The notes under the pieces: generated by a model | Database searches by the model: none | Told to the model about the DNA's origin: nothing | The model's input: the letters and a program-made list of their open reading frames with translations, nothing else | Position numbers and translations under genes: made by a program | Virus record (IMG/VR): IMGVR_UViG_3300027858_000542 | Location: 1-25,699 of that record | DNA from: a virus | DNA length: 25,699 bases | Strand: one strand, 5' to 3' | Shown: positions 2,967 to 13,716 of the stretch, one piece after another | Numbering within the stretch: the first letter of the stretch is position 1 | Layout of the letters: each line of letters begins with the position of its first letter

Positions 2967-3262
2967 TAATTAGTACCTCCCATCAGAGTAGCAAGAGCCA
3001 TCGTTAATTCCATAACACTACCTTCTAGTTCCGTTAGTCTATCTTGCTGTTTTTCTTCATCTGTAGGGATTATGTCCTCGTAGTCGAACCATACCCTTCC
3101 AGTTTTGTTATCAGCCTTCAATATAGCATTTTGTGAATCAGTCGATTCGTCGATAGGTAAAGACTCCAGTTGGATAGCTTTCACTTTCGTTTCTTCTGAT
3201 AAATATTTTCCGTCAAAAACTATACTTGCTAAATTATTTTCTCCTTCGAATACGTAAATCAT
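2966..3262 (-). CDS. XkdW-like tail-fibre-associated protein
   Basis: A 98-residue acidic protein lying between the tail fibre and XkdX, where PBSX-like phages carry XkdW or similar small tail proteins. The N-terminus (MIYVFEGENNLASIVFDGKY) looks beta-rich; the C-terminus is a helix (LTELEGSVMELTMALATLMG) of the type found at the end of many small phage tail proteins. The start ATG at 3262 has a GGAGAGGGT site upstream. Assignment rests mainly on position and general pattern; a chaperone or fibre-attachment role is possible. Confidence 0.6.
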   Translation of the reverse strand: MIYVFEGENNLASIVFDGKYLSEETKVKAIQLESLPIDESTDSQNAILKADNKTGRVWFDYEDIIPTDEEKQQDRLTELEGSVMELTMALATLMGGTN

Positions 3263-9121: not shown

Positions 9122-11143
9122 CTATATGTTTGCCATTCTAAGTTTTAATTGTGGTACTAGTTCGTTCATAATTTCACTCGTGGTTTTGTTTGTGCCATTA
9201 ATATTGATAACAAAACTATTACCACCTGTACCACTTGATGCTACTGTAGTAGGTCTTTTATCGATATTATCAATTGTCACACCTTGACTACGTAGTTTTT
9301 GCGACTGTTTAGCAGGTATAATCATTTCTCCTTGGTGAATGTTAGCCACCATATCTCTTCGAACGCTATTTGTACCGACTGCATAAGAATCTAACTGTTT
9401 AAATGCCGCTTGACCTGCGGGTGGGGTAGCTTGTCCCCAATCCACTTTTGCAACAATTGGAATATTAACACCAGGGATTAAATTGATCGCTCCGATTAAA
9501 TCGTTAATCTTGCCAATCACGAAGTTCATGCTATCTGATGCGGCTGATTTAACAAATTCCCATGCTGCCGAAAACCCTGTTTGAATACCTGTCCACACTT
9601 CTTTCAACCTTTCCCATAAACTCAGACCAGCTGCACTAATAGTGTCCCAATTTTTATAAAGAAGGACTCCTACAGCTACTACTGCACCAATAGCTATCGC
9701 AACCCAACCTAATGGTGAAATAGTTAATACTGCGTTAAAAGCTGTTGTCGCTACAGACATAGCAATCATTCCAAGTGTCAAACCTTTACTTGCCAATGTC
9801 GCTAAACCTACAACTGTTTTGAAAAACACAACAGATGCAGCCACTCCGTAAATAATAGGCGATATCAAATTCCAATTGTCGTTGATATTGTTGTATAATT
9901 CGGTAGCTTTCTCGACAACTGCAAAAATACCGTCCACAACCATAGGCAACCCTTCGTCTTTCAACCACGACAAAGCAGGTTTAGAACTTTCAAACGCATC
10001 AAGTAACCAACCTTTTAACTCTAATGCTTTCGCTCCTAAATCTCCCATGACAGCTTGAACACCTTCTATTGCCGGTTTGTTTTCGTCTATGCGTTGTTTG
10101 ATATTTTGAAAAGCGTCAATTGCTAAACCTTTCAAAATCACTACACCGATACCTAATATTTCTATTGCTTTTTTAACACCAGGTAACGCAGTATCTTTGA
10201 TCCAACTTATCACCGGTTTAACCATTTCCATTGCGCTTTTTGCCACGCTTCCAAACTTTTTGAAACCTGCGATAACTGAATCTGTATTAAGTTTCAATAT
10301 TCGATCAGTTAGCTGTTTCATTGATTTTATAACAGGAGCAAGAAGCGGATCGCCAAATTTCACTTTCACCAATCTCCATGATTCTTTCAAGTTACCTAAT
10401 ACGTTTTCTAAACCATCCGTTTCACGTGCTGCTTGTCCTAAAGCACCAGACAATTTATTACCGTCCTCAACCATTTGTAACAAGGTTAATTGTTTCTGGT
10501 CCTCACTTAATTTTTTGAACGATGAACCGTATAATTTATTAGCTGCTGCATTCCTAGTCGTTTCCGTTGCGGCAATACCTAAAGCTGCATCATTCGCAAA
10601 GTTACCTTTTAAAAATGACTGCAAACTCTCAGATACGCTTTCGATGGACTTATCATAAAACGCTGCACCATCGGCTGCTGCTAATGTTGCTCGTTCGGTT
10701 AATGACAAGGCACCTGCTGTATCCATACCAGTAGTTTTAGCGAAGGCTGCCATTCCCAAGAAAGTTCCTTTTAACCTACCAGATAGGATTCCAGTTTGAT
10801 TTGCCACTCTAGCTAAACTAGTTTCTGCTGAACTTTCCAAAGTTGCGAACACTTGCTCAAATTGAGAGGACATAGCTTTTGCAGAAGCTGAAGCTTCAAT
10901 CATACTCACACCTAAGTCTTTAATTGCATTAACACCTACATAAGCGGCTGCTAATCCAACAACGCTCGTTGCAACACCTTTAAAGCTTGATACTGCTGAT
11001 TTTCCGAACCGGTTTATTGTATTTCCAGTATGTTTTATTCTTCGTGATAAGCCGTTTGCATTATTTGCTGCATTAGACATACCACTACTAAAATTTGCAT
11101 CTCGTAACGTTAAAATTGCGGATATAACGCTATTACCTGCCAT
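9122..11143 (-). CDS. Tail tape measure protein
   Basis: A 673-residue tape measure protein that sets tail length and passes into the host with DNA. The N-terminus (AILTLRDANFSSGMSNAANN, then RRIKHTGNTINRFGKSAVSS) is typical; the segment near 75-260 resembles the tape-measure core with LSLTERATLAAADGAAFYDK. About residues 425-500 is strongly hydrophobic (IMVA/FFKTVVGLATLA, GWVAIAIGAVVAVGVLLY), perhaps a membrane-insertion part. The C-terminus has YAVGTNSVRRDMVANIHQGE then MIIPA (587-605), a signature of Gram-positive phage tape measures. There is no lytic transglycosylase or peptidase domain. It is about half the length of PBSX XkdO, suggesting a tail near 100 nm. It follows an intrinsic terminator (see 11161-11204). 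Confidence 0.9.
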   Translation of the reverse strand: MAGNSVISAILTLRDANFSSGMSNAANNANGLSRRIKHTGNTINRFGKSAVSSFKGVATSVVGLAAAYVGVNAIKDLGVSMIEASASAKAMSSQFEQVFATLESSAETSLARVANQTGILSGRLKGTFLGMAAFAKTTGMDTAGALSLTERATLAAADGAAFYDKSIESVSESLQSFLKGNFANDAALGIAATETTRNAAANKLYGSSFKKLSEDQKQLTLLQMVEDGNKLSGALGQAARETDGLENVLGNLKESWRLVKVKFGDPLLAPVIKSMKQLTDRILKLNTDSVIAGFKKFGSVAKSAMEMVKPVISWIKDTALPGVKKAIEILGIGVVILKGLAIDAFQNIKQRIDENKPAIEGVQAVMGDLGAKALELKGWLLDAFESSKPALSWLKDEGLPMVVDGIFAVVEKATELYNNINDNWNLISPIIYGVAASVVFFKTVVGLATLASKGLTLGMIAMSVATTAFNAVLTISPLGWVAIAIGAVVAVGVLLYKNWDTISAAGLSLWERLKEVWTGIQTGFSAAWEFVKSAASDSMNFVIGKINDLIGAINLIPGVNIPIVAKVDWGQATPPAGQAAFKQLDSYAVGTNSVRRDMVANIHQGEMIIPAKQSQKLRSQGVTIDNIDKRPTTVASSGTGGNSFVININGTNKTTSEIMNELVPQLKLRMANI

Positions 11144-11160
11144 TTATTTCACCGCCTTTA

Positions 11161-11204
11161 AATAAAAAAGAGAGCCTAAACAGTTCCCTGTCTTTCGCTC
11201 TCCT
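11161..11204 (-). terminator. Intrinsic terminator inside the tail operon
   Basis: On the minus strand GAGAGC (11197-11202) pairs with GCTCTC (11170-11175), enclosing a second stem AGACAG / CTGTTT with a GGAA loop, and TTTTTTATTT follows directly. It lies 18 bases before the tape-measure start. The stop codon of the frameshifted chaperone (11176-11178) is inside the hairpin, so its ribosomes would disrupt it. Confidence 0.75.
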
Positions 11205-11708
11205 CTTCATGATGTAACATCATACTTGCTTGGTAGAATGTTTTTTGTGTGGACGAAAGATTAAGAATATAATCATCCGTAAAACCTTTTTGTAAATAGT
11301 GATGGATTAAATAGAAATCTCCGTCACTTTTTATTAGTTTTTTAAGTCTTCCACAGCTTTTACATTACTTTCATATCCTGCAAGCTTTAATCCTGCCTTT
11401 GCAATTCCAGTAATTGCGCCTGGATAGAATACTTTAGATACAATATCTATAGGTTCAATACACCCATATGCCTTATGCAATTCAGGATCTTTCAAATTTG
11501 GTTCTGTAACGATGTTGTACACCATATAATCATCACTTTCAGATTCAATAGCATCCATCACCACTGAACGATCTGGTTGAACAATAGTAATAGTCGCATC
11601 CATTTCTTCTACATACAGTTCCTGTTTAAGACCTGATTTCACCTGGTATTTTTCTTTTTCCTTGATTAAATCAGTTAAGCTAAGTTTTTTCTTTTCTATT
11701 TTTGTCAT
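11176..11708 (-). CDS. Frameshifted tail assembly chaperone (G-T type)
   Basis: Predicted -1 frameshift product of 177 residues. Ribosomes reading the upstream 124-codon chaperone gene meet the heptamer A AAA AAC (11337-11343, minus strand) in the correct frame, just before TAA. After a -1 slip the frame stays open for 53 codons, encoding LIKSDGDFYLIHHYLQKGFT and then DDYILNLSSTQKTFYQASMM, and stops at 11176. This matches the well-known arrangement in which tail chaperones G and G-T are made from one start before the tape measure gene. The extension has no ribosome site or good start of its own. A stem (11298-11306 with 11320-11328; 9 bp with one mismatch) begins 8 bases past the heptamer, the right distance for a stimulatory hairpin. 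Confidence 0.85.
11298..11343 (-). promoter_or_regulatory. Programmed -1 frameshift site: heptamer plus hairpin
   Basis: Slippery heptamer A AAA AAC at 11343-11337 in frame with codons TTA AAA AAC TAA. Eight bases later the stem AGTGACGGA (11328-11320) pairs with TCCATCACT (11306-11298), one C-A mismatch, 13-base loop. Both elements are seen directly; the function follows from established tail-chaperone frameshifting. Confidence 0.85.
11334..11708 (-). CDS. xkdN: Tail assembly chaperone, zero-frame product (XkdN-like)
   Basis: A 124-residue chaperone of the XkdN / phage tail assembly chaperone type. The N-terminus KKKLSLTDLIKEKEKYQVKS, the segment LYVEEMDATITIVQPDRS and the C-terminal helix fit the family. 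It should bind the tape measure during tail assembly. It lies between the tube gene and the tape measure as expected. The stop TAA at 11334-11336 follows directly on the slippery heptamer and is itself followed by a second TAA. The start ATG has AAGGAG-like sequence upstream (AAAAAAGGAGAATACTAG). Confidence 0.85.
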   Translation of the reverse strand: MTKIEKKKLSLTDLIKEKEKYQVKSGLKQELYVEEMDATITIVQPDRSVVMDAIESESDDYMVYNIVTEPNLKDPELHKAYGCIEPIDIVSKVFYPGAITGIAKAGLKLAGYESNVKAVEDLKN

Positions 11709-11725
11709 TCTAGTATTCTCCTTTT

Positions 11726-12160
11726 TTATGCAGTGATAGAATCAATTAAATCGTAATCAGCAAAGTTGAACGGAAGTTCTTCAGTGCCCAGTGTTTTTTG
11801 TTCAAACTTCAGTAACATAAATTCATTAAATGTTACTTCACTAATCGATACACGTTCTGCGCCATAAGCATCTGGATCCGCAAGTTTTCCAACCATACTA
11901 ATTTCAGGCATAATACCCGTTTTAACTGCATTAGCCATTAGATTAGCTCCACGACTGTATACTTTCTTCACTGTCGTCGAACCTTCCCCTGCCCAACCAG
12001 TCATTTTTTTATGAGTAGCTAAATCTTCTGCCATGTTTACGTCTTCAAAATTAATTGTAACTTTCGCTTCAAAGGTTTCTACATCTAACCATTTTTCATT
12101 ATTCACCCACATGGAACCGAACGTGCCGTTAATTTGTTTATTACCTTTTAATTTAGCCAT
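11726..12160 (-). CDS. xkdM: Phage tail tube protein (XkdM)
   Basis: A 144-residue major tail tube protein. The opening (LKGNKQINGTFGSMWVNNEK) and the middle EAKVTINFEDVNMAEDLATH, then KKMTGWAGEGSTTVKKVYSR, match XkdM (DUF2001), which forms the inner tube inside the contractile sheath. It directly follows the sheath gene with a 12-base gap and an AGGAGGGT site. Full family length, no anomaly seen. Confidence 0.93.
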   Translation of the reverse strand: MAKLKGNKQINGTFGSMWVNNEKWLDVETFEAKVTINFEDVNMAEDLATHKKMTGWAGEGSTTVKKVYSRGANLMANAVKTGIMPEISMVGKLADPDAYGAERVSISEVTFNEFMLLKFEQKTLGTEELPFNFADYDLIDSITA

Positions 12161-12172
12161 TAGTTACCCTCC

Positions 12173-13231
12173 TTATATCGAAATATCAAAGTCTAAGTCT
12201 TCCATTGCATCAACGATTTTCACGTTACCTGCCAAGAACACATTACGTTTGAAAGATGTTTCTTTAACTTTTTGGTCATCCCATGCTGATGTATCTGTTC
12301 CAATTGATTCCCACGCTAATCGTTGTTTACCAACGTCAATAGTCGCTTTATTAACTGCGCTTGGATCTAGGATTTCATCTGCAGCTAATCCTGAGAAGTA
12401 AGCATTAACAGAAGTGATAAATAATACTTGATTATCGTAAATGTTGTTTACTTTACCAACATATTGAGTATCGAAAGTAGTGCGAATATCATCCTTAATC
12501 ATATCCATTACTTCCACAACTCTGATTGACTTGAAGTCTTCTGTTTTTTGTATAGTAGTAGTCGTTAAACTATTAACCCCACGACCAATTTTAATATTTT
12601 CACCATCATTGATTAGTATTAGTTCGCCATCATCAACCGCTTTGTCTGGATCTTCGATTTCTGTAATAGAATCAATTTCAGGGAACTCGAAGTATGTGGA
12701 GGAACGAGTGAATGGAAGACCTGCCAATACTCCTGCAATACGTCCTGTATATTCAGCAGTCGTATATGCTTTCCCACCCACTGTAATACCACTAGTCGTA
12801 AAGTTGATAATACCCTCATGGTCGCCTTCTGTATTAGGAAGAACAGCCTTAAACGTCTTCTTATCGTTCTCACGCTTTGATTTAATCCATGTAGCAATTA
12901 AAGTAGTATCCGCATCTTCAATACCTGGAATTGCTAAGTAATTGAAGCGTTTATTGTTTAATCTGGTTAGTGCTGCATTATAATCAACAACTTCCGCACC
13001 TAACCGTTCGATAATTACCTTGCTAGGTGTTCCCATGAAGGTTTTTTGAATAAGGTCTAAGTTCTCAGGAGACCATTCTCCTGTTTTTACTTCCTCCACA
13101 CTCTTATAAGTTACCGTGTCTGCAGTTTGTATATTGTCCTTTAGGATCAATGCTACGATACCTAATTGACTACGTTTAATTGCAGTTACCGCGCGACCAA
13201 CGAACTCAATATTTATTTCTGGCAATCCCAA
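12173..13231 (-). CDS. xkdK: Phage tail sheath protein (XkdK-like)
   Basis: A 352-residue contractile sheath protein. It starts GLPEINIEFVGRAVTAIKRS and shows KRFNYLAIPGIEDADTTLIA, TWIKSKRENDKKTFKAVLPN and a C-terminal domain ending VKIVDAMEDLDFDISI, typical of the shorter XkdK-like sheaths (PBSX XkdK is over 100 residues longer). It makes the tail contractile, so the virion is a myovirus. I chose TTG at 13231, since AGAGGAG is 8 bases upstream, over the GTG at 13240 which touches that site. Confidence 0.92.
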   Translation of the reverse strand: MGLPEINIEFVGRAVTAIKRSQLGIVALILKDNIQTADTVTYKSVEEVKTGEWSPENLDLIQKTFMGTPSKVIIERLGAEVVDYNAALTRLNNKRFNYLAIPGIEDADTTLIATWIKSKRENDKKTFKAVLPNTEGDHEGIINFTTSGITVGGKAYTTAEYTGRIAGVLAGLPFTRSSTYFEFPEIDSITEIEDPDKAVDDGELILINDGENIKIGRGVNSLTTTTIQKTEDFKSIRVVEVMDMIKDDIRTTFDTQYVGKVNNIYDNQVLFITSVNAYFSGLAADEILDPSAVNKATIDVGKQRLAWESIGTDTSAWDDQKVKETSFKRNVFLAGNVKIVDAMEDLDFDISI

Positions 13232-13236
13232 TCTAA

Positions 13237-13716
13237 TCACTCCTCTTTTTCATATTCCAAAACTTCCATTTTTTCAATTGGATGTTTCGTATAAAAATCT
13301 TTACCATTCTCTAATTCGTCAACAATTGTATGACCGTCCCACGAAAGTTCTCGTCCCTCGTAAAATTCGATATCAAACGAGAAGTTTAATACACCATCCA
13401 CCATATTGACATTCGCTTCATTAATCGTTAATAATCGGTCAACTACAGGTAGTTTTAAATCAAATAGATTCTCTAACTTCTCCTGCACATCCAACACTTC
13501 GATTGAATATTCGTAACGATCAGTTGGGAAATAATAAATTTGCACATTCAATGATTTGTGAACTTGGTTTTCATCAGCAGAACGAATACTATCCAAAAAC
13601 TCCACAAAAAAAGAAGGTCTAATAAAACCTTCTGTAACGTCCCGACTATTAATTTCAATACCTAGCTTTTTTAATTGGCGATTAATTGCTATTTTTATAT
13701 CTTTGTAAGTAATCAT
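13237..13716 (-). CDS. Tail terminator-like protein (YqbJ/DUF6838 type)
   Basis: A 159-residue protein beginning MITYKDIKIAINRQLKKLGI with GFIRPSFFVEFLD, SLNVQIYYFPTDR and a closing beta part (NFSFDIEFYEG). This is the layout of the YqbJ-type tail terminator / completion protein placed between the gp10-like gene and the sheath. It should cap the tail tube at the head side. The ATG at 13716 overlaps the preceding stop as TGATG. Confidence 0.8.
   Translation of the reverse strand: MITYKDIKIAINRQLKKLGIEINSRDVTEGFIRPSFFVEFLDSIRSADENQVHKSLNVQIYYFPTDRYEYSIEVLDVQEKLENLFDLKLPVVDRLLTINEANVNMVDGVLNFSFDIEFYEGRELSWDGHTIVDELENGKDFYTKHPIEKMEVLEYEKEE

Follow-up and report, generated by a model that had tools for sequence, protein, structure and literature searches.

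From one operon, phages have to produce tube and sheath subunits by the hundred, yet no more than a few tape measure molecules. The tail assembly chaperones G and G-T are reportedly made by a programmed -1 frameshift, as laid out by Xu, Hendrix and Duda in 2004 for gpG and gpGT of lambda. The locus described here resembles lambda in having a heptamer near the end of G, a short T extension and an adjoining tape measure gene; it differs in that the T stop of lambda has no terminator, which is an addition in the clade studied here.

Gene 17.1 of phage SPP1 undergoes a documented +1 frameshift that yields 17.1*, whose UAA ends at position 11,279 within a predicted terminator (11,255–11,304); in the SPP1 sequence that UAA is the hairpin loop (PMC6316719). 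As at our locus, a late tail operon has a predicted terminator whose loop holds a stop codon reached only by frameshifting, whereas the shift in SPP1 is +1, in the tube gene and in another virion type, and ours is -1 and in the chaperone gene. The SPP1-like Bacillus phage 049ML001 confirms the stop-in-loop arrangement: in its locus L219 the end of the shifted major tail protein is at 1325, and a terminator match spans 1301–1350. The passages of PMC6316719 covered here do not comment on the coincidence of the 17.1* stop with the terminator. SPP1 17.1* is an independent example of a frameshift stop in a terminator, by which the signal may reach beyond the family studied here, but a single case is no proof, because the ordinary SPP1 gene 33.1 also has its stop inside a terminator. 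SPP1 has a further predicted terminator inside 17.5* (12,009–12,049).

T7 gene 10, too, is a structural gene with a frameshift and has a transcription terminator downstream, the sequence of which influences frameshifting (PMC5009743); unlike the present case, the terminator lies more than 200 nt from the shift site, the effect is on frameshifting and the enzyme is T7 RNA polymerase. In Escherichia coli, one inserted G that moves a stop codon from 28 to 5 bp before the tR2 terminator lowers termination from ~90% to <10% (PMC4824070). There, as in pyrBI-type attenuation, termination is lost when a ribosome stops close to the hairpin, and a change of reading frame alters the result; the differences from our locus are that transcription and translation are coupled and that the frame is changed by an inserted base, not by programmed frameshifting.

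The initial annotation of our locus knew of no described case of frameshifting coupled to termination. The principle is known from tR2, but in the literature searched (most subscription journals lay outside the search) we found no described link of programmed frameshifting with termination at this junction. Taken singly, terminator and frameshift belong to known kinds; that they overlap in a fixed way across a large clade of phages of Bacillus-like hosts appears to be undescribed in the searchable literature.

Results

A predicted terminator encloses the -1 stop codon

The window, by which we mean the whole 25.7 kb virus record that was analyzed, carries contractile-tail genes on its minus strand (Table 1). 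Profile matches of its neighbors place the chaperone gene between the tube and tape measure genes, as for G/G-T systems. Identities of up to 80% between its sheath and those of prophages in Lysinibacillus-type genomes make a Lysinibacillus-like bacterium of the Bacillota the probable host.

Table 1. Features of the tube-to-tape-measure region in the window, and the alternative terminator position in sister clades
Feature	Position	Strand	Basis
Tail sheath gene	12173..13240	-	PF04984/PF17482, phrog_1480
Tail tube gene	11726..12160	-	PF09393, phrog_365
XkdN-like tail assembly chaperone, frame zero (G), stop TAA 11336-11334	11334..11708	-	PF08890 (E 4.5e-8), phrog_4976 (E 1.3e-34)
Slippery heptamer A AAA AAC	11337..11343	-	Sequence; context ...TTA AAA AAC TAA at chaperone end
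Hairpin 8 nt past heptamer, possible frameshift stimulator	11298..11328	-	Fold z -3.0 for 11250-11345, window only
-1 frame extension (T part of G-T), 55 aa, stop TAG 11178-11176	11176..11343	-	Translation; phrog_10264 (E 4.7e-5)
Predicted terminator hairpin around -1 stop, 14 outer and 6 inner pairs	11162..11210	-	Fold -24 kcal/mol, z -6.6
Core stem (GAGAGC...GCTCTC), inner stem-loop between arms	11202-11197 / 11175-11170	-	Fold
U-tract TTTTTTATTT	11160..11169	-	Sequence; matches B. subtilis NusG pause motif TTNTTT (PMC9226507)
Shine-Dalgarno-like AAAGGCGGTG of tape measure gene, starting directly 3' of U-tract	11150..11159	-	Sequence
Tape measure protein gene, 673 aa	9122..11143	-	phrog_58, phrog_991, other tape measure families
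Terminator-like hairpin directly 3' of tube stop, before chaperone gene	Loci L003-L005, L015, L021-L023, L183-L197		C. difficile and PBSX-type loci

Judged by its sequence, the heptamer is a canonical -1 site, and its position just before the frame-zero stop, followed by an open -1 extension, predicts a G/G-T -1 frameshift. It is present in 127 of the 134 loci of a first scan and in 29/30 further PF08890 loci, with AAAAAAG in a few. The hairpin beyond it, at the spacing usual for a frameshift stimulator, is a possible candidate for that role in the fold model.

The second hairpin, between chaperone and tape measure, is far more stable than its shuffled counterparts (-9.6 ± 2.2 kcal/mol; 0/200 as good) and has a d'Aubenton-type score of +17.7. 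With a U-rich tract directly after it on the transcribed strand, it is a predicted intrinsic terminator, and it encloses the -1 stop codon, which lies upstream of the U-tract. The frame-zero stop is ~125–132 nt upstream, so a frame-zero ribosome would be clear of the hairpin. A translated frame enters the terminator hairpin, as in pyrBI-type attenuators, but it is the -1 frame only. Sequence, translation and fold on the minus strand bear out the initial annotation in its coordinates of hairpin and stops, in the terminator that it placed between chaperone and tape measure, and in its claim that ribosomes ending in frame zero leave the hairpin free. A generic terminator pattern scan missed this hairpin because its loop limit was 8, and Rfam had no match across window positions 10900-12300.

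A separate tape measure promoter was considered and rejected: only ~20 nt separate the U-tract from the start codon, and the U-tract abuts the ribosome-binding site, so a promoter cannot fit between them and tape measure RNA must cross the hairpin. The best promoter-like match upstream of the gene (11296-11269, 9/12) is weak and lies where such matches are scarcer than in shuffled sequence.

Elsewhere in the window, a terminator-like hairpin, AGAAGGTTTTATTAGACCTTCT followed by TTTTTTTG, occurs on the minus strand at 13633-13612, within the ORF at 13719-13237 and soon after its start.

The hairpin is conserved in structure among related junctions

Related junctions were gathered from phage records, IMG/VR and bacterial genomes. 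A single-sequence chaperone query found no matches among viral contigs, but alignment and tube-protein queries did find relatives. The set comprised 127 loci with the heptamer at the frame-zero stop of the chaperone and a -1 extension, representing 91 distinct junctions, and a d'Aubenton-type terminator score was computed around every -1 stop, with scores above 0 taken as positive. Conservation of hairpin and stop position had been proposed in the initial annotation as a check on the locus; a terminator is predicted at the -1 stop in 45/91 distinct junctions, compared with 0.07 expected from dinucleotide shuffles. These 45 loci are related and hence do not represent 45 independent events; well-supported branches of the chaperone tree force at least six gains or losses of the terminator state.

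The 45 terminators have 28 different stem pairs. Because no single MAFFT register suits every hairpin (the window stem is off by one), arm swapping between relatives served as a second measure of covariation; it weakened the mean fold from -18.8 to -13.6 kcal/mol, a cost of ~5 kcal/mol (p = 1e-13). Among 22 alignable members the true register paired best, and two-sided changes exceeded those in all 500 shuffles, a control that leaves relatedness in. Because stems differ, arm swapping costs energy and two-sided changes exceed shuffles, the hairpin, half coding and half non-coding, is by sequence comparison conserved through its structure rather than its sequence.

Other properties of the junction vary with the terminator. 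The -1 stop is UAG in 39 of the 45 terminator loci, often paired with a CUA in the 5' arm, as against 22/70 elsewhere. The tape measure start lies 23–44 nt (median 30) past the -1 stop where there is a terminator; where there is none, the median is 11 nt and the start may overlap the stop. Several members (L027, L077, L100, L108, L206) have the hairpin with a poor U-tract; in L027 (~3030-3075) a very long perfect hairpin surrounds a TGA -1 stop (-33 kcal/mol for the whole region) with hardly any U-tract.

Six loci of Paenibacillus-order genomes (L120, L121, L123, L129, L131, L134) carry a terminator-like repeat, GCCCGG..CCGGGC plus a T-run, ~92 nt past the heptamer. It lies wholly within the frameshift-only T frame and, if active, would yield RNAs without the -1 stop; it may be a by-product of a conserved PGE..R-A-F coding motif.

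Overlap with the stop codon is rare at other gene ends

The hairpin is folded around the -1 stop codon in all 45 terminator loci, starting 11–33 nt before the end of that codon and finishing 1–14 nt past it. Given these limits, the 5' arm would be translated by shifted ribosomes only, and a ribosome terminating at the -1 stop would mask the hairpin largely or completely. The initial annotation had shifted ribosomes ending within the hairpin, and in this the whole set of terminator loci agrees.

Control gene ends, scored in the same way as the -1 stops, seldom show such overlap: it occurs at 5/101 gene-end terminators in 800 kb of two host genomes, at about 5/37 from 540 ORF ends of related and other Bacillota phages and prophages (one more match is wholly inside an ORF), and at 2 of 28 tail-tube stops in the same phage family. 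We reject, on the host figure, the idea that Bacillales always overlap stop and terminator and, on the phage figure, a general phage habit as the full explanation.

Two loci of the same prophage family have a weak terminator across an ORF stop, L175 at 2137 and L176 at 17088. The L176 ORF (394 aa) is probably the major capsid gene, and these weak terminators might form another step-down, behind a virion gene whose product is abundant.

In sister clades a predicted terminator often follows the tube gene

The C. difficile phages and most of the PBSX-type XkdN loci have no terminator at the -1 stop. A predicted one lies instead between tube and chaperone, usually with its start 0–24 nt past the tube stop, at a place that involves no frameshift. 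Both positions are occupied together in only 3/115 loci. The tube-gene terminators of these clades suggest that a step following the tube gene is general.

Discussion

From the sequence, structure, conservation and position of the element at the -1 stop, we infer that it is rather likely a leaky intrinsic terminator acting as a step-down in the late operon, with the effect that the tape measure and baseplate genes would be transcribed less than sheath and tube. Polymerases arriving from the head, sheath, tube and chaperone genes would partly stop at the hairpin, and those that read through would transcribe the tape measure and baseplate genes; it should be leaky because the essential tape measure gene must be expressed. 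Terminated RNA would keep complete G and G-T reading frames, since the -1 stop precedes the U-tract. The common denominator would be a terminator between the tube, needed in many copies, and the tape measure, needed in few, placed after the tube or after the chaperone according to clade. The separation of many-copy from few-copy genes proposed in the initial annotation fits this position, and SPP1, in which the genes for major capsid and tail tube are each followed by a predicted terminator, counts in the same direction (PMC6316719). A conserved terminator at the tube-to-tape boundary, shifting in position between clades, would be a simple route to the copy ratio. A late phage antiterminator could silence the site.

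For a step-down terminator, overlap with the -1 frame may simply be tolerated: few ribosomes would be there, the junction would be compact and space would be saved. A purine-rich T end, with its Glu and Lys codons, would pair easily with a 3' arm that is rich in pyrimidines and serves as U-tract as well; members whose arms are G-rich (L102, L113-L119) do not fit this argument. Nor is compactness by itself enough to account for overlap in 45/45 loci, given about 5/37 at compact phage gene ends elsewhere.

The rates of overlap, far above those at host, phage and tube-stop controls, could instead reflect antitermination controlled by frameshifting. A shifted ribosome close behind the polymerase would stop at the TAG and cover the hairpin, whose 5' arm only such ribosomes translate and whose 3' arm ends within reach of a terminating ribosome, so that the polymerase passes and the frameshift rate sets tape measure transcription. 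We consider this unlikely. It is physically possible: a reading-frame effect on a terminator works in E. coli (PMC4824070), and the UAA of SPP1 17.1* lies exactly in a terminator loop. Our analysis disfavors it because Bacillota polymerases outrun ribosomes. The B. subtilis polymerase does so (PMC7858274) and the phylum is classed as having runaway transcription (PMC13323073), so the lead ribosome is expected far behind. Polymerase pausing could rescue coupling: the vmlR leader of B. subtilis shows ribosome-dependent attenuation when the polymerase pauses, and the U-tract of the window matches the NusG pause motif (PMC9226507). Against it also stand related phages that have the frameshift without a terminator there, and others with a terminator after the tube gene. 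The proposal in the initial annotation that frameshift frequency sets read-through loses ground on both counts, sister clades using a tube-gene terminator without any frameshift and Bacillota transcription being runaway (PMC13323073, PMC7858274). That the programmed frameshift is an antitermination switch, in which the rare event behind the G-T initiator at the same time permits transcription of the tape measure and baseplate genes and keeps product and RNA proportional, we likewise hold to be improbable; if true, the SPP1 tube gene with its +1 frameshift would have come to this geometry on its own. A frameshift-only stop within the hairpin makes a link between frameshifting and termination testable in hosts where coupling is thought to be absent.

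Termination might also be a minor activity of a hairpin that protects the 3' end of the upstream mRNA or marks a cleavage site. The members with a hairpin but a poor U-tract would suit such a role, to which we give little credence: 45 loci with unrelated stems have a good U-tract directly 3'. It is very unlikely that the hairpin is inactive, whether as a relic in a late operon whose transcription is antiterminated or as an inverted repeat due to protein-coding constraint. The repeat inside T in the Paenibacillus subclade, possibly a coding by-product, is in keeping with the latter, but at the -1 stop the non-coding half of the hairpin covaries with the coding half.

In C. difficile phages (L003-L005 and relatives) the -1 stop closely follows the start codon of the tape measure gene (ATGGCTAG), an arrangement that suggests translational coupling of the tape measure to shifted ribosomes.
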